Below are positions 42,639-52,932 of a stretch of DNA of 64,000 nucleotides, one piece after another (within the stretch, counting starts at the first letter, position 1; each line of letters starts with the position of its first letter). Location: the NCBI RefSeq assembly GCF_019880245.1, contig NZ_CP082288.1:186001-250000 (forward strand). Reading direction: 5' to 3'. Position numbers and translations under genes: made by a program. The notes beneath the pieces are model-generated. The model was not told the origin of the DNA. It worked only from the letters and a program-made list of their open reading frames with translations, and ran no database searches. This stretch comes from Halobaculum roseum (GTDB taxonomy: Archaea; Halobacteriota; Halobacteria; Halobacteriales; Haloferacaceae).

Positions 42639-42652
42639 TTAGGTTGGCCTAA
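42639..42652 (+). promoter_or_regulatory. DtxR-type iron box TTAGG-N4-CCTAA
   Basis: TTAGGTTGGCCTAA is an inverted repeat matching the TTAGGTTAGSCTAA core recognised by DtxR/IdeR-family metal-dependent repressors. It ends 11 nt before the ATG at 42664, overlapping the expected transcription start, consistent with repression by iron or manganese. Confidence 0.65.
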
Positions 42653-42663
42653 TCGGTTCGCGA

Positions 42664-43233
42664 ATGCAGCTCTCCCGTCGCGACGCGATGCTCGCGCTGT
42701 CGGCAGCGGGCGTCGGATCGCTGGCCGGCTGTGGCGCGCCGGTCGCGAGCGACGGCCCCGGCGACGGCACCACCACCGACGACGAGGACGGAGGAGCGCG
42801 CGACGACACAGTCGGCGACCACGAACTGTCGACGCTGATCGCGGTCGCCCGCGCGGTGTACCCCTCCGCCGTCGACGGGGTCGACGAGTTCGTCCGCACC
42901 TACACCGGGGGCCGCGTCGACGGCGACGGTGCGTACGCCCGCGGGGTCGCCGATGCGGTGGAGACGCTCGACGAGTACACGGGGAACTTGTACGACGCGC
43001 AGTACGTCGATCTGGAACCTGCGGACCGCGTCGAGGCGCTGGACGTGATGAGCGTCGACGTGGCGGAGCCCGAACCCGACGGCACCGACCCCCAGCGCGT
43101 CCGCCACTACCTCGTGAACGAACTGCTGTACGCGCTGTACGCCTCGCCGACCGGCGCGTCGTTGGCTGGACTGGAGAACCCCCCGGGCCACCCGGGCGGC
43201 ACCGAGTCGTACCGGGAGGGACCGAACCGATGA
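42664..43233 (+). CDS. Gluconate 2-dehydrogenase subunit 3-like lipoprotein
   Basis: 189 residues. A twin-arginine start (SRRDAMLAL) with a lipobox-like SLAGC at about 21 indicates Tat-exported lipoprotein; a polar acidic linker follows. The remainder (STLIAVARAVYPSAVDGVDEFV ... YDAQYVDLEPADRVEALDVM ... NELLYALYASPTG, quoted in parts) matches the gluconate 2-dehydrogenase subunit 3 family. It would be the small partner of the GMC subunit immediately downstream, with which it overlaps by 4 nt (ATGA). An iron-box overlaps its promoter. Confidence 0.82.
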   Translation: MQLSRRDAMLALSAAGVGSLAGCGAPVASDGPGDGTTTDDEDGGARDDTVGDHELSTLIAVARAVYPSAVDGVDEFVRTYTGGRVDGDGAYARGVADAVETLDEYTGNLYDAQYVDLEPADRVEALDVMSVDVAEPEPDGTDPQRVRHYLVNELLYALYASPTGASLAGLENPPGHPGGTESYREGPNR

Positions 43234-44849
43234 GCGCCGACGGGACTGACAGCGAAAACGGAAGGGATCGAACGCCGTCGCCGCGGGTCGACGTGTGCGT
43301 CGTCGGCGCGGGACCGGCGGGCGGGCTCGTCGCCGCGGAGCTGTCGGCGGCCGGCCACGACGTGGTCGTTCTCGATGCCGGTCCTCGGTTCGATCCCGAG
43401 GACCGCACCGAGCGGATGGAACGGCACCTCCGGCCGGGCGTCGACGGCCCGGTGTGGGACACCGACCCCGAGCGCGACGCCTACAGCAGCACCGGCGATC
43501 GGTACTACCCGCTCAACGCCGCTCGCGTGAAGGGGATCGGCGGGAGCACGCTCCACTGGCAGGGGATGGTGATGCGGATGCACGAGCAGGACTTCGAACT
43601 GGGGTCGGCGACCGGGATGGGCGCCGACTGGCCGATCGACTACGACGATCTGCGACCGTACTACGCCGACGCCGAGGGGGAGCTGTCCGTGTCGGGCGCC
43701 TCGGATAACCCCTTCGCGCCGCCGCGGGAGGAACCGCACCCGCTGCCGGCGTTCCCGCCGTCGTACTCGGACTCGCTGTTCGCTGAGGCGTGTGAGCAGG
43801 TCGGCCTCGCGACCCACTCGGTGCCGAACGCGCGCAACTCCGAGCCGACCGACGAGGCGAGCGCGTGCGTCGGCTACGGCACCTGCAGACCCGTCTGCCC
43901 GTCGGGCGCGAAGTACGACGCGACGCGGCACATCGACGCTGCTGAGGCGAACGGCGCGCGCGTGCTCGACCGGGTCCCCGTCCAGCGGCTCGAACACGAC
44001 GACCGCGGAGAACGTGTCACCGCGGCGGTGTACGCGACCCCCGACGGCGAGGAGCACCGTCAGGAGGCTCGCGAGTTCGTCGTCGCCGCCGGCGGGGTCG
44101 AGACGCCGCGGCTCCTCCTGCTCTCCCGGAGCGAGGCGTACCCGGACGGCCTCGCCAACTCCTCGGGGCTCGTTGGCCGATACTTCATGGACCACCTGTT
44201 CGCGGGGATGGGCGGGACGCTCGACGAGCCGACCCGCCAGAAGCACGTCGGCTTCAACACCACCGAGAGCCACCAGTTCTACGACCGACCGGACGACTCC
44301 CGGACCGCGATCAAGCTGGAGTTCCTCAACTACGCCGGTCCGTCGCCGGCGGACATCGCCCTCGGTGCGGACAGCTTCGGCGACGACCTGCTGGAGGAGA
44401 TCCGCGAGGGATACGGCCAGCACGTCGCGATGGGGGCGCTCGTCGAGCAGTTGCCCCGGAGGGAGAACCGGATCCGGCTGGACCCCTCGCGGACGGACGA
44501 CCACGGGAACCCCGTCCCCGACGTGGTGTGGAGCCTCGACCAGACGACGCGCCGGACCATCGAGCGCGCCAACGAGATCCAACGCGAGGTGCTCGAGGAG
44601 CTGGGCGTCGACATCGGCTGGACGGTCGGCCCCGACAACACCGGTCCGGCGTATCACCACATGGGGACGACCAGGATGGGTACCGACCCCGCCGAGAGCG
44701 TCGTGGACCCGCAGTTGCGGACGCACGACCTCGCGAACCTCACGCTCGCCGGGAGTTCGGTGTTCGTGACGGGCGGCGCGATGAACCCGACGCTCACGAT
44801 CGCTGCGCTGTCGCTGAAGGCGGCCGAGCACGTCGCGGAGCGGTTGTAA
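43230..44849 (+). CDS. GMC-family FAD oxidoreductase (gluconate dehydrogenase-like)
   Basis: 539 residues. VCVVGAGPAGGLVAAEL (about 22-38) binds FAD; GIGGSTLHWQGM (about 104-115) is a GMC signature, and near the C-terminus HHMGTTRMG with GGAMNPTLT carries the catalytic His and Asn. A GTCRPVCPSGAKYDAT segment in the middle is Cys-containing. The substrate is an alcohol or sugar, not identifiable further. It forms an overlapping pair with the small lipoprotein subunit, and both are likely under metal control. No cytochrome subunit is seen nearby. Confidence 0.87.
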   Translation: MSADGTDSENGRDRTPSPRVDVCVVGAGPAGGLVAAELSAAGHDVVVLDAGPRFDPEDRTERMERHLRPGVDGPVWDTDPERDAYSSTGDRYYPLNAARVKGIGGSTLHWQGMVMRMHEQDFELGSATGMGADWPIDYDDLRPYYADAEGELSVSGASDNPFAPPREEPHPLPAFPPSYSDSLFAEACEQVGLATHSVPNARNSEPTDEASACVGYGTCRPVCPSGAKYDATRHIDAAEANGARVLDRVPVQRLEHDDRGERVTAAVYATPDGEEHRQEAREFVVAAGGVETPRLLLLSRSEAYPDGLANSSGLVGRYFMDHLFAGMGGTLDEPTRQKHVGFNTTESHQFYDRPDDSRTAIKLEFLNYAGPSPADIALGADSFGDDLLEEIREGYGQHVAMGALVEQLPRRENRIRLDPSRTDDHGNPVPDVVWSLDQTTRRTIERANEIQREVLEELGVDIGWTVGPDNTGPAYHHMGTTRMGTDPAESVVDPQLRTHDLANLTLAGSSVFVTGGAMNPTLTIAALSLKAAEHVAERL

Positions 44850-44918
44850 GCCGTAGACGGTCCCGTACCGGCTCCCGTTGTCGATCGGTTCCGTACGGTT
44901 TGGACGCCGTGTGGTAGC

Positions 44919-44927
44919 TTTATTATC
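44919..44927 (+). promoter_or_regulatory. TATA-like box TTTATTATC
   Basis: AT-rich element about 27 nt before the ATG of a 15-residue leader ORF at 44955, and 68 nt before the ATG of the 18-CxxC protein. Confidence 0.5.
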
Positions 44928-44954
44928 CACCCGAAGAATTCGCGGGCAGCCAAC

Positions 44955-45002
44955 ATGTACTGGTACAGACACCGCCCGAGTCGGGTGATCCCGGATGGGT
45001 AG
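44955..45002 (+). CDS. Possible 15-residue leader peptide overlapping the 18-CxxC gene
   Basis: ATG-to-TAG ORF (MYWYRHRPSRVIPDG) at leaderless spacing from the TATA-like box; its TAG (45000-45002) overlaps the ATG of the next gene (44995), as in the DUF1616 case. Basic and aromatic. Coding is not proven. Confidence 0.4.
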   Translation: MYWYRHRPSRVIPDG

Positions 45003-47433
45003 CGACCCCGCCAGCGACGACCAGGGAGCCGGTTCTCGGCCGGACGCCGACGACGTGCTCGAGCAGTTGGCCGCCAAAGCCAGCGTCGACGACAGTGTCG
45101 CGGACGCGACGGTGGTCGAGACACACCGGGAACGTGCGCGGCGCCGGTCGGAGCGAATTCTCACGGCCAGCGACGGGAGGGCGAAGCGGAGCTGGATCCT
45201 CCCCGGGACGTACGAGCGACAGTGCGACGAGCGTGTCGCGTACGCCGACCGGTACGACGCCGCGCCTGACGGCCTCGGGACGAAGCGTGTGCCGTACGTC
45301 GAGACGGGCCGACCCGTGGAGACCTGTCCGGGCTGTGACGGCGAGGAACGCACGACCTGTTCCAGATGCGGGGGCGACAAGGAGGCGGACTGTCGTACCT
45401 GCAACGGCGACGGGAACACGACGTGCTCGGCCTGTGACGGTGACCCGGTCAGCGAGTGCGACGACTGCGAGGACGGCACACAGCCCTGTTCGGCGTGTGG
45501 CGGAAGCGCGTCCGAGGACTGCCCGGAGTGTGGGGGATCGGGAGGCCACACCGAAACCGGGCAGTGTCCACGCTGTGAGGGCGACGGCTGGATCAACTGC
45601 GAGGACTGCGACGGCGAAGGCGGCGAGTGCGACACCTGCGGGGGCGAGTCGACCGTCGACTGTCCGCGCTGTGACGGCGACGGCGTCGACGACAGGTGGA
45701 TCGACTGTTCGAGGTGTGGCGGCCGGAAGTCGCTCGGCTGTAGCAGTTGCGACGGAACCGGTACCGAGCGCTGTGACACGTGCGGCGGAACGACGACGCT
45801 CTCGTGTGACGCGTGTAACGGGTCGGGGTCGGAACCCTGCGACGACTGTGACGAGTCCGGCGTCGTCCGCTGTACCGACTGCGACGAGAACGGAACGGTG
45901 ACGTGTGGCCAGTGCAAGGGCGTCGGGGAGGTCGTTCACGCGGTGAGCGGCGAACTCGTGTTCGACGTGGACACGGCGGCCGAACTCGACACCGAGCGCG
46001 TTCCCGGCGACTGGATCTCCAGTCAGGACGGCACGGTCGTCGACCGGGAGCGGGACGATCCCGAGAACGCGGGGGGAGTGTACCGCCGCGTCATCGAGGA
46101 GGAGGAGATCCCGGCGATGACGATCACATACCGGCACGCCGGGGGCGAGTACGAGGCCGCCATCGTCGACGGAACCCTCCGCTACGACGACGCCCCGAAG
46201 CCGGCGGAGAACATCCAGGCGCAGATCGAACACGCGGTCGATAGCGGTGTCTTCGAGTACGACTCCGGCCGGTCGTTCGGCGAGACCGTTCGCGCGGCCC
46301 CGGGGGCGCTCGTCGCGGACGGCGCGCGCATCGGCGCCGGCGTGGTACTCACGTCGGTTGTACTTCTCGGAGTGGGGCTGGCGACGACACTGGTTCCGAT
46401 CGGCGACGGACTCCAAGACGCGGTCGGCGTCGGCGCGGCCGCAGTGGCCGCGCTGTGGTACGCCCAACGAACCGGTGCCGACGAGGAGGGGATCTCGACG
46501 GCGTCCAACGGCGGCGGTCTCCTCGCGCCGGCGATTCTCGGTGTGGCAGCCGTCGGAGCGACTATCCAGGGCGTTGTCGGCCCCGCGTCCGGGCTCCTCG
46601 CGCTCGCGCTCGCCGCCGGTCTCTGGAGCAGGAGGGTGGCCGGTCGGCTTGCGTTCGAGCGGGCCCGCGTCGATCACCGGGTCCGGCAACGGAGGACGTT
46701 CCTCGAGAACACACTCGACGGGCGGCCCTCCGAGGTGGCCGCGCTCGGGCTCGCCGACCTGCTTCCGAGCCCCGAGCCCGTCCCGAGCGGCGATCTGCTC
46801 GATCGTGTCAGCAGTCTGGTGGTCACCGTCGGGTTGGGCGCGAACGTCTGGGTCGCGGGCCTGTTGGCGCTCGGGGCCGTCGGCGGCGGGAACCTCCTCC
46901 TCGACTACGTCGGGTTCGGGACGGTACTCGTGGTACCCGCGGCGACCGCGCTCGTCGCGACGGCTTCCCTGTCGGTGCTCGCCCTCGGGAGGTTCATCCA
47001 GGGCGATCCCGAGGCGGACCTGGACCCCGATACCGAACCCCGGAGCCGCCGGTCGACGGATACGCGGGGGTCCGTCGATCCGGAGGGTTCGGTCCAGTCA
47101 CGCGAACCTGCCCAGTCGCGCGAACCCGTCGAGTCGCGCGGACCGACGCGGTCGACCGGGTCGAACGGTTCGGCGGACCGACTGAACGACTTCCAACTCA
47201 CGCTGCTGTACTGCATCGATCGGGGCGGGGGCAACACGGGAGTCGAGATCAAAGAGCGGATGGTGGACCTGCACGACGACCCGACGGCGGAGGCCGGAGT
47301 CGATCCCGCCCTCCGACAGTTGACGCGCAGGGGGTACCTCCAACGGACAGATCGGGGCTACTACACGACGCGAGCCGGAGAGGAACTGATCCGAGAACAC
47401 GAGGTTCGGATCGAGCAACGGGTCGGCTCGTAG
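44995..47433 (+). CDS. Membrane protein with 18 CxxC zinc-finger motifs and a C-terminal winged helix
   Basis: 812 residues. After a charged N-terminus, residues about 110-310 hold 18 CxxC motifs at roughly 10-13-residue spacing, many as CxxCxGxG or CxxCDG like DnaJ zinc fingers but greatly expanded (36 Cys, up to nine zinc sites). A soluble beta-rich segment follows (about 310-440), then two or more membrane segments (about 445-550 and 600-665), a Ser/Pro/Arg-rich repeat linker and a winged-helix segment (about 730-812: FQLTLLYCIDRGGG ... GVEIKERMVDLHDDPTAEAGVDPALRQLTRRGYLQR, quoted in part). I do not recognise this architecture. It may be a membrane-tethered zinc/redox sensor or RNA-binding protein with a regulatory tail. 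Confidence 0.8.
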   Translation: MGSDPASDDQGAGSRPDADDVLEQLAAKASVDDSVADATVVETHRERARRRSERILTASDGRAKRSWILPGTYERQCDERVAYADRYDAAPDGLGTKRVPYVETGRPVETCPGCDGEERTTCSRCGGDKEADCRTCNGDGNTTCSACDGDPVSECDDCEDGTQPCSACGGSASEDCPECGGSGGHTETGQCPRCEGDGWINCEDCDGEGGECDTCGGESTVDCPRCDGDGVDDRWIDCSRCGGRKSLGCSSCDGTGTERCDTCGGTTTLSCDACNGSGSEPCDDCDESGVVRCTDCDENGTVTCGQCKGVGEVVHAVSGELVFDVDTAAELDTERVPGDWISSQDGTVVDRERDDPENAGGVYRRVIEEEEIPAMTITYRHAGGEYEAAIVDGTLRYDDAPKPAENIQAQIEHAVDSGVFEYDSGRSFGETVRAAPGALVADGARIGAGVVLTSVVLLGVGLATTLVPIGDGLQDAVGVGAAAVAALWYAQRTGADEEGISTASNGGGLLAPAILGVAAVGATIQGVVGPASGLLALALAAGLWSRRVAGRLAFERARVDHRVRQRRTFLENTLDGRPSEVAALGLADLLPSPEPVPSGDLLDRVSSLVVTVGLGANVWVAGLLALGAVGGGNLLLDYVGFGTVLVVPAATALVATASLSVLALGRFIQGDPEADLDPDTEPRSRRSTDTRGSVDPEGSVQSREPAQSREPVESRGPTRSTGSNGSADRLNDFQLTLLYCIDRGGGNTGVEIKERMVDLHDDPTAEAGVDPALRQLTRRGYLQRTDRGYYTTRAGEELIREHEVRIEQRVGS

Positions 47434-47559
47434 CCGGGACCCCGAAAGCCCGTCATACCGGAGGGCCGCGGCGGAATCGGCCCGAGATCGGGCACACCGG
47501 GATCGGACACACCGCCCGATCGGGCCGTAGTTTTTGGCCGCCCGAAATATCGACACTCT

Positions 47560-47573
47560 TTAGGCCGCCCTAA
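47560..47573 (+). promoter_or_regulatory. DtxR-type iron box TTAGG-N4-CCTAA
   Basis: TTAGGCCGCCCTAA, the same half-sites and spacing as at 42639-42652. It lies 17 nt before the ATG at 47591, with an AT-rich promoter (CGAAATATCG) just upstream. Confidence 0.65.
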
Positions 47574-47590
47574 TCAGATCGGAGTAACGA

Positions 47591-48772
47591 ATGAGTTCAC
47601 CGCAGGACATCTGTGTCATCATCCCGACGATACGGGAGTACGAGTGCGTCCGCGAGTACGTCGCGAACGCACGCGACCACGGCTTCGACACGGACAGGCT
47701 GTTCTTCGTCCTCGTCACCGAGGACTTCTGTGACACGGGGGCGATGGAGTCGATGCTCGACGAGGAGGGTGTCGACGGCACCGTCTTCGACGGCACCGCA
47801 CGCGAGGAGTGGTTCGAGGACCACGACGCCGCGGAGTTCTCGCACCTGATCCCCGCCGCGAGCCACGCGCAGACCTCCTTCGGCCTGCTGTACATGTGGG
47901 CCCACGAGCGCTTCGAGTACGGCGTCTTCATCGACGACGACACGCTCCCGCACGCCGAGGAGGACTTCTTCGGCACCCACATGCGCAACCTCGCGCACGA
48001 GGGGGAGATCGAGTCCGTCCGTTCGGACGAGTCGTGGGTGAACGTCCTCTACCAGTCCGACACCGACCTCTACCCCCGCGGCTACCCGTACGCCGCGATG
48101 GACGAGACCGTCGAGACCGACACCGAGCACGTCGACGAGGTCGTCGCCTCCCAAGGGCTGTGGACGAACGTGCCCGACCTCGACGCCGTCCGGATCCTGA
48201 TGGACGGCGACCTGCAGGGGCAGGCCCAGACGCTCACCGAGTCGAGCGACTTCCGGCGCGACTTCGTCGCCGCCGAGGGACAGTACCTCACGGTCTGCTC
48301 GATGAACCTCGGCTTCCGTCGCGAGGTCGTCCCCGCGTTCTATCAGCTCCCGATGGACGACAACGAGTGGGAGGTCGGCCGGTTCGACGACATCTGGTCG
48401 GGGCTGTTCCTCAAGCGCGCCGCGGACGTGCTCGGCAAGCAGGTGTACAACGGCGGCCCGCTGTGTGAGCACAACAAGGCGCCCCGGTCGACGTTCGACG
48501 ACCTCGCGAACGAGGTCGCGGGCCTTGAGCTGAACGAGCACGTTTGGGAGGTGCTCGACGGCGTCGCCGAGGACGCCGATTCCTTCGAGGCGGCGTTCGC
48601 GGAGATGGCCGACGCGCTCGCGGAGGGCGACTTCGAGGAGTGGAACAACGGGGCGTTCCTCAACCACTGCGGCGAGTACATGCGCGACTGGATCGACTGC
48701 CTCGACCGCGTCGAGGGCGCGGGAACACGTGCGACGGCGGCGGAGGCACCCGAGGTACCGGCGGATGACTGA
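47591..48772 (+). CDS. RGP-like (GT75) sugar mutase/glycosyltransferase family protein
   Basis: 393 residues. ICVIIPTIREYECVREYVANARDHG at the start and GVFIDDDTLPH at about 110-120 are the fold and acidic DDD motif of the reversibly glycosylated polypeptide family (annotated alpha-1,4-glucan-protein synthase or UDP-arabinopyranose mutase-like). NLGFRREVVPAFYQLP and GRFDDIWSGLFLKRA follow. Soluble, no signal peptide. The substrate is unknown. It is the first gene of a unit containing an iron-type ABC transporter and carries the metal box upstream, unusual for such an enzyme. Confidence 0.8.
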   Translation: MSSPQDICVIIPTIREYECVREYVANARDHGFDTDRLFFVLVTEDFCDTGAMESMLDEEGVDGTVFDGTAREEWFEDHDAAEFSHLIPAASHAQTSFGLLYMWAHERFEYGVFIDDDTLPHAEEDFFGTHMRNLAHEGEIESVRSDESWVNVLYQSDTDLYPRGYPYAAMDETVETDTEHVDEVVASQGLWTNVPDLDAVRILMDGDLQGQAQTLTESSDFRRDFVAAEGQYLTVCSMNLGFRREVVPAFYQLPMDDNEWEVGRFDDIWSGLFLKRAADVLGKQVYNGGPLCEHNKAPRSTFDDLANEVAGLELNEHVWEVLDGVAEDADSFEAAFAEMADALAEGDFEEWNNGAFLNHCGEYMRDWIDCLDRVEGAGTRATAAEAPEVPADD

Positions 48773-50009
48773 TCGAGAGACACACACCGACATGACCGAC
48801 GAACACACCACGGACGGACGGCGGACGTATCGGCGGCGGAAGGTACTCGCGGGACTGGGCGCGGCCGGCGCGGCCGGGCTCGCGGGCTGTGGCGGCCTCG
48901 GCGGCGACGGCGAGGGAGACACCGGCGGCGGCGACGACGGCGGTGGCGGCGGAGGCGGCGGCGGAACCGGCGGCGACGACAGGATCGACGCCGCCTTCGA
49001 CGATTTCCGCGGCTCCGGTCCGCTGGCGCAGGGCCGCTCCGACATCGGCGGCACGCGCATCGGCGACCTCGAGGATCTCAGCGGCGAGCTGACGATCTAC
49101 CTCGGCGGCGGCGAGGGCGGCCTCTACCGCGACCTGCTCGCGAAGTTCGAGGACATCTACCCCGACTTCACCGCGACGCCGCGCGAGTCGGGAACCGCCG
49201 ACGCGGCGAACACGATCATCAGCGAGGGCCCGGCGACGCCGGCGGACGTGTTCTGGTCGGTCGACGCGGGGTCGCTGGCGGCCGTCTCCGCCGAGGGGCT
49301 CGCGGCGGAGCTCCCCTCGGAGGTCGTCGACCCCGTCCCCGAGGAGTTCCACCCCGACGACACGTGGGTGGGTACCGCCGGGCGGGCCCGGGCGGTCCCG
49401 TACAACACCGAGGAACTGTCGGAGGACGACATCCCGGACGACGTGATGGAGTTCCCGGAGTTCGAGGGCTTCCAGGACGCGATCGGGTGGGCGCCCACCT
49501 ACGGCGCCTTCCAGTCGTTCGTCACCGCGATGCGGCTGATCGAGGGCGAGGAGGCCACCCGCGAGTGGCTCCAGGGGATGCTCGACGCGGGCGTCACCGA
49601 GTTCAACAACGAGTTCCTCGTGTCGAACGCCGTCGCGGACGGCGCGCTCAACGGCGGGTTCGCGAACCACTACTACGCGCTGCGCGTGCAGGCCGCCCGG
49701 CCGAACGCGCCGATCGACCTCGCGTTCACCAGCGGCGACGCCGGCGGGCTGATCAACGTCGCGGGCGCGTCGGTGCTGTCGGCGAGCCAGAACAAGGAGC
49801 TCGCGTTCAACTTCGTGCGCCACCTCCTGTCGGCGGAGGCCCAGGAGTTCTTCGCCACCCGGACGTACGGCTACCCGATGGTCGGGGAGATCCCGCCCGT
49901 GGGCGGGCTGCCGCCGGTGTCGGAGCTGGACCCGCCGAGCATCGACCTGCGCGAGCTGTCGAACATCCAGCCGACCCTCGACCTGATGCGCGACGTCGGG
50001 GTGCTGTGA
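48765..50009 (+). CDS. Iron-type ABC transporter substrate-binding lipoprotein
   Basis: 414 residues from the ATG at 48765, which overlaps the preceding stop by 8 nt; 48792 is an alternative. RRRKVLAGLG is a Tat motif and GLAGCG a lipobox; a Gly/Asp-rich tether (about 46-70) follows. The rest is a class-C periplasmic-binding fold (LTIYLGGGEGGLYRDLLAKFEDIYPDF, quoted in part; DVFWSVDAGSLAAVSAEG; ARAVPYNTE), matching Fe(III)/thiamine-type binding proteins. It delivers iron (probably) to the permease encoded next. The two acidic/aromatic binding residues could not be assigned with confidence. Confidence 0.86.
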   Translation: MTDRETHTDMTDEHTTDGRRTYRRRKVLAGLGAAGAAGLAGCGGLGGDGEGDTGGGDDGGGGGGGGGTGGDDRIDAAFDDFRGSGPLAQGRSDIGGTRIGDLEDLSGELTIYLGGGEGGLYRDLLAKFEDIYPDFTATPRESGTADAANTIISEGPATPADVFWSVDAGSLAAVSAEGLAAELPSEVVDPVPEEFHPDDTWVGTAGRARAVPYNTEELSEDDIPDDVMEFPEFEGFQDAIGWAPTYGAFQSFVTAMRLIEGEEATREWLQGMLDAGVTEFNNEFLVSNAVADGALNGGFANHYYALRVQAARPNAPIDLAFTSGDAGGLINVAGASVLSASQNKELAFNFVRHLLSAEAQEFFATRTYGYPMVGEIPPVGGLPPVSELDPPSIDLRELSNIQPTLDLMRDVGVL

Positions 50010-50026
50010 TGCGCGAGGCGGTCTGA
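50009..50026 (+). CDS. Five-residue mini-ORF between ABC genes
   Basis: ATG at 50009 overlaps the SBP stop (TGATG) and encodes MREAV before TGA, which is 1 nt before the permease ATG at 50028. It may keep ribosomes on the message across the junction; that it is translated is unproven. Confidence 0.2.
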   Translation: MREAV

Positions 50027-50027
50027 G

Positions 50028-51686
50028 ATGGCCCCCGGCGAGGGCGTCGGTCGGATCCACGGCCTGCTCGCCAGCGACGACGACCAGCCGAGCGTGGCGG
50101 TCGTCCTCCTGGCGGCGGGCGTCGCGGCCGCGGTGCTCTCGCCGTTGTTGTGGCTGTTCATCAGCGCCTCGGAGCTGGCCGTCGGCGACGCCGTCTCGCT
50201 GTTGACCTCGGAGACGACGACGGAGGTGCTCGTCAACAGCCTCACGCTCGTGAGCCTGGTGACGGGCGCGTCGATCGTGCTGGGTGTCCCGCTGGCGGTG
50301 TTGACCGTCCAGACGGACCTCCCGTTCAGGCGCTTTTGGACCGTCCTCGCTGCGCTCCCGCTTGTGGTCCCCAGCTACATCGGCGCGTTCGCGTACGTCT
50401 CGGCGTTCGGACCCAGCGGCGCGCTGCCGGACCTGTTCGCCCAGTACGGGTTCGGGTTCGTAAACCCCTACCTACCGACGGTGTACGGACTCGGCGGAAC
50501 GACGCTCGTGTTGACCCTGTTCACGTACCCGTACGTGTTCCTCACCACCCGCGCGTCGCTGCTCTCGTTCGACACGACACAGCTGGAGGCGGCACGCACG
50601 CTCAACCACAGCTATCCGCAGGCGTTCCGGCGGGTGATCCTTCCGCAGATCGCGCCGGGGGTGACCGCGGGCGCGCTGTTGGTCGCGCTGTACACGCTCT
50701 CGGACTTCGGGACGCCCGCGATCATGCGCCTCGACGTGTTCACCCGCGTCATCTACGTCGAGCTGAACAGTTTCGGCGTGGGGCGGTCGAACGCGACGCT
50801 GCTGTCGATCCAGCTGCTGACCGTCACCGCCGTGATCCTCGCGCTCGAATCGCGCGTCAGCGGCGACACCGCCGCGGGGTACGGGACGCCCTCGTCGGTG
50901 AAGACGGTCGTCTCGCTGGGGCCCTTCCGATGGCTCGCGGCGGCGGTACCCGCGTTCGTGAGCCTGTTCACGCTGGCGCTGCCCGTGGGGATCCTCACGA
51001 TGTGGCTCGTGCGCTCAGGCCCGGGATACAGCGGAGGCGGGCTCGCGTTCCGACCGGAGTTCGCGTTGAACTCTGCGTACGTCGCCGTGTTGACCGCGGC
51101 CGCGACGGTGGTGCTCGCGCTCCCGGTCGCCTACTACGCCGGGCGGTCGAACTCGCTGCTCTCGAAGGCGGTCGACCGTGCGACGTACCTCGGCTACGCG
51201 ATGCCCGGCGTCGTCCTCGGACTGGCGCTGGTGTTCTTCTCCAGCCGGTGGCTGCTGGACACGTTCGGCGCCGACGCGGCCCGACTGGTGTACCAGTCGC
51301 TGCCGCTTCTTGTGTTCGCGTACGTGGTCCGGTTCCTCCCGCAGGCGGTCGGGTCGACCCGGTCGTCCGTGCTCGGCGTCGACCGCGACCTCGTCGGCGC
51401 CGCCCGCCTGCTCGGCGAGGACCCCCGCGGCGCGTTCCGGCGGGTGACACTGCCGCTCATCTCGCCGGGGCTCGTCGCGGGCGCGGCGCTCGTGTTCCTC
51501 ACGACGATGAAGGAGCTAGACACGACGCTCATCCTCCATCCGACAGGGTTTACAACGATAGTGACCTACATCTGGCGTGTTCAGGAGGCCGGGTACTACG
51601 GTCGCGCCGCGCTGCCGGCGCTCGTGTTAGTGGCCGTGTCCGGCCTCTCGATGGTGCCGCTGCTCACCCGATCCGACGATGCGTGA
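50028..51686 (+). CDS. Iron-type ABC transporter permease (fused double-domain, FbpB/ThiP type)
   Basis: 552 residues with about 12 membrane segments in two homologous halves. Each half has an EAA-type cytoplasmic loop: LEAARTLNHSYPQAFRRVILP (quoted in part, about 195) and VGAARLLGEDPRGAFRRVTLP (about 462). This two-in-one design is typical of Fe(III) permeases. It forms the transmembrane pore for the binding protein upstream and overlaps the ATPase gene by 8 nt. Confidence 0.88.
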   Translation: MAPGEGVGRIHGLLASDDDQPSVAVVLLAAGVAAAVLSPLLWLFISASELAVGDAVSLLTSETTTEVLVNSLTLVSLVTGASIVLGVPLAVLTVQTDLPFRRFWTVLAALPLVVPSYIGAFAYVSAFGPSGALPDLFAQYGFGFVNPYLPTVYGLGGTTLVLTLFTYPYVFLTTRASLLSFDTTQLEAARTLNHSYPQAFRRVILPQIAPGVTAGALLVALYTLSDFGTPAIMRLDVFTRVIYVELNSFGVGRSNATLLSIQLLTVTAVILALESRVSGDTAAGYGTPSSVKTVVSLGPFRWLAAAVPAFVSLFTLALPVGILTMWLVRSGPGYSGGGLAFRPEFALNSAYVAVLTAAATVVLALPVAYYAGRSNSLLSKAVDRATYLGYAMPGVVLGLALVFFSSRWLLDTFGADAARLVYQSLPLLVFAYVVRFLPQAVGSTRSSVLGVDRDLVGAARLLGEDPRGAFRRVTLPLISPGLVAGAALVFLTTMKELDTTLILHPTGFTTIVTYIWRVQEAGYYGRAALPALVLVAVSGLSMVPLLTRSDDA

Positions 51687-52932
51687 CGATACACCCCACC
51701 CAGACCGCGACGCAGATCGACCCGATCGAGCCGACGCCGACGCGGCCGGTCCGGCCACCGACGGCGGGACGGCCGTCGACGAGACCGCCGGCAGCCCAAC
51801 GGATCGCGACCGGGTCGAGTCGGCGGCGACAGTCGGCGACAGCCTCGGCGGCGACGCGGGGGAGCCGACGGGCGAGGCGGTGTTGGAACTCGAGGACGTG
51901 GTCAAGCGGTACGGCTCTGAGACGGCCGTTTCCGGCCTCGATCTGACCGTCCGCGAGGGCGAACTCGTCACCCTTCTCGGCCCGTCCGGCTGCGGGAAGA
52001 CCACGACGCTTCGCATGATAGCCGGGCTGGAGACGCCCTCCGACGGCAAGATTTCCGTCGGCGACGAGGTGGTGGCCGGCGACGGCGCCGCCACCCCGCC
52101 CGAGGAGCGCGACGTGGGGCTCGTGTTCCAGGAGTTCGCGCTGTTCCCGCACCTCACTGTGGCCGAGAACATCGCGTTCGGGCTCGACGACCCGAACTCC
52201 GAGACCGCCGACGAGCGGGTGGCGGAATTGCTAGATCTGGTCGGACTCGGCGACTACGGCGACCGCTCGGTGACCGAGCTGTCGGGCGGGCAGCGCCAGC
52301 GGGTGGCGCTCGCGCGCTCGCTGGCGCCGGAGCCGGAGGTGTTGCTGCTCGACGAACCGTTCTCGAATCTCGACGTGAGCCTCCGCGTGCGGATGCGCGA
52401 GGAGGTGAAGCGCATTCTCGACGAGGCGGGCGTGACGGCCGTCTCGGTCACCCACGACCAGGAGGAGGCGCTGTCGATCTCCGACCGCGTCGCCGTCGTC
52501 AACGACGGCACGGTCGAACAGATCGGCGACCCCGGAGAGGTGTTCGAGCACCCCACCTCCCGGTTCGTCGCCTCCTTCCTGGGGCAGGCGAGCTTCCTCC
52601 CGGCGCGCGTCAGCGAGAGCGGGATAGAGACGAGCGTCGGGTCGTACGACCGTGACCTGTTGAAGGGGCTCGGCGACGGCTACGTCGGCAGCCACGTCGA
52701 CGTGCTGGTTCGCCCCGACGACCTCCGGGCCACCCCGGTCGCCGAGGGCGACGCCGACGGCGAGGTGATCCGCCGCCAGTACACCGGCCCATCGTTCGTC
52801 TATCACGTGAAGCTCGACGACGGCACCGTCCTGCGCTGTCTCCACAACCACACCGAGGAGTTCGAGGTGGGCGAGCCCGTCGCCGTGACGCTCGTCGCCG
52901 ACCACGCCCTCGCGTGGTACCCCGCCGAGTAG
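51679..52932 (+). CDS. Iron-type ABC transporter ATP-binding protein (FbpC type)
   Basis: 417 residues. Walker A GPSGCGKTTT at 101-110, Q-loop FQEF, signature LSGGQRQRVALARSL and Walker B VLLLDEPFSNLD at about 200-225, all intact; a C-terminal TOBE-like domain (about 315-417) follows. The N-terminal 65 residues are an acidic, low-complexity extension absent from most FbpC proteins, and it overlaps the permease by 8 nt. Substrate assigned as Fe(III) from the family and upstream metal box; thiamine or phosphonate cannot be excluded. Confidence 0.88.
   Translation: MRDDTPHPDRDADRPDRADADAAGPATDGGTAVDETAGSPTDRDRVESAATVGDSLGGDAGEPTGEAVLELEDVVKRYGSETAVSGLDLTVREGELVTLLGPSGCGKTTTLRMIAGLETPSDGKISVGDEVVAGDGAATPPEERDVGLVFQEFALFPHLTVAENIAFGLDDPNSETADERVAELLDLVGLGDYGDRSVTELSGGQRQRVALARSLAPEPEVLLLDEPFSNLDVSLRVRMREEVKRILDEAGVTAVSVTHDQEEALSISDRVAVVNDGTVEQIGDPGEVFEHPTSRFVASFLGQASFLPARVSESGIETSVGSYDRDLLKGLGDGYVGSHVDVLVRPDDLRATPVAEGDADGEVIRRQYTGPSFVYHVKLDDGTVLRCLHNHTEEFEVGEPVAVTLVADHALAWYPAE

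Follow-up and report, generated by a model that had tools for sequence, protein, structure and literature searches.

Introduction

In the Cys-rich domain of DnaJ (type I Hsp40), four CxxCxGxG motifs, hereafter called knuckles, are nested, knuckle I pairing with knuckle IV and knuckle II with knuckle III. Here, we compare this and related systems with a protein of the haloarchaeon Halobaculum roseum, encoded on the forward strand at positions 44995-47433 of a 64,000-nucleotide stretch of contig NZ_CP082288.1 (positions 186,001 to 250,000; hereafter the window). It combines an array of 18 knuckles with a membrane region and a C-terminal winged helix, and our analysis suggests a protein similar to transmembrane regulators, whose candidate sensor is a giant zinc hairpin of the DnaJ type.

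Several J-less CxxCxGxG proteins of plastids, i.e., BSD2/ZnJ2, LQY1 and FIP, are described as chaperones or repair factors, some of them being membrane-anchored (PMC5818400, PMC5915565, PMC6805722). Plant and algal ZnJ2, which contains four CxxCxGxG motifs, binds zinc, and oxidoreductase activity has been reported for the CxxCxGxG domains of DnaJ (PMC5818400). The animal protein SSUH2/fls485 has been termed a putative chaperone (PMC2838759). Regarding gene regulation, transmembrane transcription regulators (TTRs) (PMC10269533) and membrane-bound regulators of Sulfolobus acidocaldarius (PMC6396743) carry a DNA-binding domain on a chain that also has membrane segments, and in Haloferax volcanii a TrmB-type regulator with a single winged helix uses thiols (PMC9426492).

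With DnaJ, the window protein shares CxxCxGxG knuckles and segments on both sides of the array, and the nested pairing of DnaJ appears to match the mirror rule described below. In contrast to DnaJ, it has 18 knuckles instead of four and no detectable C-terminal domain (CTD), and a membrane region and a winged helix are added. No DnaJ-domain match was obtained in Pfam, hence it has no J domain with an HPD motif, and PF00684 was not reported for the window copy and stayed below cut-off in its orthologs. The plastid proteins differ from it by their four knuckles (ZnJ2) and lack of a winged helix, and no such flanking beta domain has been described for them. Like TTRs and the Sulfolobus regulators, it joins a membrane segment (hydropathy, loop charges) to a DNA-binding-type domain in the same chain (PadR over cut-off in an ortholog); unlike TTRs, it has about six predicted helices, hardly any outside loops and a large, presumably cytosolic Cys module in front.

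A Conserved Protein of Unusual Architecture

The open reading frame starts with ATG and encodes 812 amino acids. Its parts, together with the promoter element, are the following:

44919..44925, + strand: TATA-like element TTTATTA in the putative own promoter of the Cys gene, deduced from the sequence and identical in three species
44995..47433, + strand: coding sequence of the Cys-array membrane protein ending in a winged helix, with orthologs in 5 of 11 Halobaculum genomes
45046..45324, + strand: N-terminal segment ahead of the array, conserved in the family (residues 18-110), predicted contributor to the hairpin base
45325..45915, + strand: CxxC array of 18 knuckles (residues 111-307), spacers 7,7,7,7,6,7,11,7,[6],7,11,7,7,7,7,7,7
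45610..45627, + strand: predicted hairpin turn, spacer of knuckles 9/10 (residues 206-211), mirror axis
45916..46269, + strand: C-beta segment, the family domain after the array (residues 308-425), delimited by conservation, with two strands in a low-confidence model
46330..46992, + strand: membrane region of about six helices (residues 446-666), both ends predicted cytosolic
47182..47430, + strand: PadR-like winged helix, C-terminal (residues 730-812), placed by ortholog alignment and a Pfam match in an ortholog

A first, sequence-only reading of the window had noticed 18 CxxC motifs (36 Cys) followed by a beta segment, membrane helices and a C-terminal winged helix. All 36 Cys are indeed found in residues 111-307, the whole protein having 38, and the order of the parts holds in five Halobaculum species. 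The same reading had allowed for frameshift errors joining two genes; such a frameshift or fusion artefact is excluded by five full-length orthologs (805-813 amino acids) with the parts in the same order and no internal stops. The full domain order thus occurs in 5 of the 11 Halobaculum genomes, the other four copies being 92, 84, 56 and 39% identical to the window protein.

Every domain is under purifying selection among the three closest copies, to which the ratio of nonsynonymous to synonymous substitution rates (dN/dS) was restricted, remoter pairs being too diverged. The winged helix gave 0.14-0.16, the array with its flanking segments 0.14-0.23, the membrane part about 0.2 and the variable linker (residues 669-729) between membrane region and winged helix about 0.35-0.38. 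No assigned function for this architecture was found in Pfam, NCBIfam or annotation: nothing in the window protein rises above curated cut-offs in Pfam or NCBIfam, and the copies of H. magnesiiphilum and H. halobium are annotated "hypothetical protein". PADLOC gave no result.

Mirror Symmetry of the Cys Array

In the window array, the two long spacers (11) are equidistant from the centre, and the same order recurs in relatives with 14 knuckles (7,7,7,7,13,7,6,7,13,7,7,7,7), 10 knuckles (7,7,11,13,14,13,11,7,7) and 8 knuckles (7,7,11,8,11,7,7). Over 15 haloarchaeal family arrays, the summed spacer asymmetry is 18 versus 129.6 expected from shuffles, the lowest value among 20,000 shuffles being 78, and moving the axis by one knuckle raises it to 109/112. 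The number of knuckles is even in all 15, counting CxC-degenerate ones, and an ortholog with 20 knuckles differs from those with 18 by one extra knuckle near each end of the array.

As a held-out test set, we took contigs of IMG/VR in which three CxxC-x-G units follow one another at a spacing of seven, giving 40 non-redundant viral arrays with all spacers of at least 5. Knuckle number is even in 38/40 of these, asymmetry is at most 1 in 35/40 and the exact centre is taken by the longest spacer in 34/37; eight more viral open reading frames were set aside (spacer below 5 or too few knuckles) by a cut chosen after the list had been seen, and some of them (e.g., L152) may be real arrays. Both array sets retain related sequences, and P-values are not exact. 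We found no description of the mirror rule in the open-access literature, subscription journals being outside the scope of the search.

The mirrored spacers and even counts make a nested antiparallel pairing likely, in which knuckle i would pair with knuckle n+1-i. Such pairing would lengthen the DnaJ arrangement, with its two zinc sites, to nine zinc sites in a single hairpin, and the 18 knuckles very probably form this nine-zinc hairpin, judging from spacing and parity. A mirror order is not what tandem duplication would yield. The sequence-only reading had remarked that such repeats normally occur four at a time; as a correction, CxxCxGxG arrays of more than four knuckles occur in other proteins as well.

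Oxidation of the array with zinc release might alternatively switch the winged helix with no client protein involved, making the protein a thiol-redox regulator. The thiol-using TrmB-type regulator of Haloferax volcanii (PMC9426492) and the oxidoreductase activity reported for DnaJ CxxCxGxG domains (PMC5818400) speak for this possibility. It is nevertheless unlikely, as even, mirrored knuckles suggest that all Cys are structural zinc ligands and the genomic context holds no pointer to oxidant defence.

The viral array proteins (L114-L193 from IMG/VR, and L081-L100) are of unassigned function, with even, mirror-symmetric CxxCxGxG arrays of 6-14 knuckles and flanking parts unrelated to the haloarchaeal family. 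Another IMG/VR open reading frame (L097) has 34 CxxC motifs in irregular order and, by eye, shows no mirror pattern.

Membrane Region and Winged Helix

Four hydropathy peaks exceed 1.8 in the window protein, and six membrane helices fit both the charges of the loops and the helix pattern of a low-confidence AlphaFold model. The K/R-rich loops are those following the fourth and sixth helices, short loops carrying no K/R, and the predicted outside loops are 2-14 residues long. The N-terminus has no signal-peptide-like sequence, the first helix coming only after 445 residues. Six helices bring the chain back to its starting side, and it is thus likely that the Cys module and the winged helix both lie in the cytosol.

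The winged helix aligns across the whole ortholog set. In one ortholog (G006), the C-terminus passes the Pfam model PadR (PF03551; 6.5e-8, score 32.9 versus a cut-off of 27), and in another (G005) the match is sub-threshold (0.0019, score 18.6). PadR domains as a rule bind DNA and typically occur in small, soluble proteins; here, instead, a PadR-like domain ends a membrane protein. It is among the most constrained parts of the three closest copies and is present in all five species, even where identity falls to 39%, and the C-terminal domain probably binds DNA. A PadR gene near the relatives L044/L045 was discounted as fusion ancestor, its surroundings looking like core genes (pyrophosphatase, TFB).

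A dyad, TGTAC-TG-GTACA, lies in the leader of the Cys gene (44956-44967) and could conceivably be an autoregulatory site; it has one mismatch in one species (G009), is broken in another (G003) and is possibly due to chance.

Relatives and Links to Chaperones

A profile made of the C-beta domain and knuckles matched in at least 22 of 392 haloarchaeal genomes, including at least one ordinary DnaJ, this count being a lower bound with few candidates scored per genome. The majority of relatives are tail-anchored, with 4-16 knuckles and one membrane helix at the C-terminus, and three members of the same family have a multi-helix membrane part with no winged helix. No C-beta match was found in a phylum sample outside the haloarchaeal order, no family member in phage records, and among plasmid records the family is confined to Halobaculum and one Halobacterium remnant. 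The latter is an unannotated remnant of a 16-knuckle relative on pNRC200 of Halobacterium salinarum NRC-1 (L073/L074, 6001-6945), its mirror symmetry broken, flanked by ISH6 and ISH27 transposase genes.

Two kinds of relatives may be linked to chaperones. One of them (L047, 4713-8935) has a J-like domain in the same chain (Pfam DnaJ 1.2e-5) together with membrane helices and the Cys module; its gene is neighboured by those of a VWA-like and a zinc-ribbon/FHA protein. In two haloarchaeal families (L050, L052), a 379-aa Hsp70/actin-like gene, not detected in any other of 293 genomes, overlaps the start of the Cys-module gene. Another haloarchaeon (G319) has extra Hsp70-like genes side by side (L108, L111), of which one is short, at about 510 aa, and the other divergent, with a normal DnaK also present.

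Animal SSUH2 seems to resemble the haloarchaeal family in that its knuckles, six in number and evenly mirrored, precede a putative C-beta domain; its N-terminal part is unmatched by the family. With what we take to be the SSUH2 sequence, which makes this a lead only, its C-beta domain matched the haloarchaeal profile at E 5e-5, above all 2,000 shuffles. We know of no membrane region or winged helix in SSUH2.

As most relatives combine the same module with a membrane anchor and no winged helix, the window protein might itself be a membrane-anchored zinc-hairpin holdase or thiol oxidoreductase comparable to LQY1 or BSD2/ZnJ2 (ZnJ2, a protein of four CxxCxGxG motifs, binds zinc; PMC5818400), its winged helix serving for protein-protein contacts or dimerisation with no direct gene regulation. 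This explanation is rather unlikely, the winged helix being strongly constrained in the closest copies, kept in five species and related to a domain that generally binds DNA.

A Variable Slot Between Two DtxR-Type Boxes

Two boxes flank the gene and are given as context only:

42639..42652, + strand: DtxR-type box of the gluconate-dehydrogenase-like/GMC operon
47560..47573, + strand: DtxR-type box of the RGP/iron ABC transporter operon

In ten Halobaculum genomes, a conserved block comprises genes for a gluconate dehydrogenase subunit 3-like protein, a GMC oxidoreductase, a slot, an RGP-like protein, a solute-binding protein, a permease, an ATPase and a glycosyltransferase 39 (GT39). This variable slot between the GMC and RGP operons (window 42639-52932; L076-L080) holds the Cys protein in five genomes, one kind of unrelated protein in two (a putative beta-propeller, judged from its first residues), an oxidoreductase-like protein in one, and is empty in two. 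The second operon is headed by a plant-type RGP homolog and includes the iron-type ABC transporter and GT39.

The box TTAGGN4CCTAA stands 25-26 bp ahead of the first operon (one copy is mismatched and one species has no box) and 29-31 bp ahead of the RGP start, whether or not the Cys gene is present. The sequence-only reading had found the position between these boxes to fit a metal theme, though not to prove it. Both boxes are exactly present but serve the flanking operons, also in species with no Cys gene, and the location of the gene between them is therefore uninformative on metals; regulation by metals through them was rejected as a positional coincidence. A metal sensor, or a zinc/iron store controlling neighbouring metal genes, could still be proposed from the 36 Cys and from the putative iron ABC transporter and boxes nearby. 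We hold it to be quite improbable, as boxes and transporter operon are unchanged in species lacking the Cys gene, the gene's own promoter has a TATA-like element and no DtxR-type box, relatives elsewhere adjoin unrelated genes, and the fixed mirrored spacing suits structural Cys4 sites, not a labile store.

Proposed Mechanism and Perspectives

The sequence-only reading had imagined a protein sensing metals, oxidants or unfolded protein at the membrane and reporting to DNA. Given a DnaJ-like Cys module, membrane segments and a winged helix in one chain, such a membrane-to-DNA reporter is plausible; the context of the relatives leans to unfolded or damaged protein, and the metal theme finds no support. 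We propose that the pairing of knuckles would run inwards from the two ends of the array (1 with 18, and so on to 9 with 10) to give nine Cys4 zinc sites along a two-stranded hairpin, the segments flanking the array meeting at its base to form one domain. About six helices, with hardly any extracellular loops between them, would tether this cytosolic module, after which the chain would re-enter the cytosol and terminate in the PadR-like winged helix. Like DnaJ-type zinc modules, hairpin and base would most likely bind protein that is misfolded or damaged at its thiols, and a bound client or oxidation would alter the engagement of DNA by the winged helix. That the protein is a membrane-tethered one-component regulator with a chaperone-like sensor is, in our view, an even proposition, and we give the same even odds to its input being damage to client proteins or thiols.

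Several points weigh against this proposal. Both structure models are unusable and lend no fold support to the hairpin, the mean predicted local distance difference test (pLDDT) being 35 for the full protein and 31 for its soluble part, from alignments containing a single homolog, and in the PDB no convincing relative was found for the array, for the C-beta segment or for the Hsp70-like protein. The internal residues of mirrored knuckles are no more alike than chance (fraction 0.81), and their similarity, considered as added support, was dropped since none was seen. The winged helix of the window copy itself matches weak helix-turn-helix models only and does not reach the PadR cut-off. Finally, the J-like domain of L047 is degenerate and has no HPD motif, the Hsp70-like gene is only weakly assigned to Hsp70 (Pfam 0.053; 34% probability in hhalign, where residues 110-304 are colinear), and the chaperone-linked relatives have no winged helix.

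Taken as a whole, the following idea is tentative and falls somewhat short of probable: whatever their length, CxxCxGxG arrays follow the mirror rule and form nested zinc hairpins, and the nine-zinc hairpin of Halobaculum serves a membrane-tethered transcription regulator as its sensor, the regulator reporting directly to DNA on misfolded or oxidised protein at the membrane. To our knowledge, no comparable reporter of protein damage has been described at the archaeal membrane. If true, the DnaJ zinc domain would be one of the short forms of a fold that can be extended, its length being readable and its pairing predictable from sequence alone, and Halobaculum would possess an unusual sensor in which, at the archaeal membrane, a chaperone-like zinc hairpin is joined directly to a domain that binds DNA.
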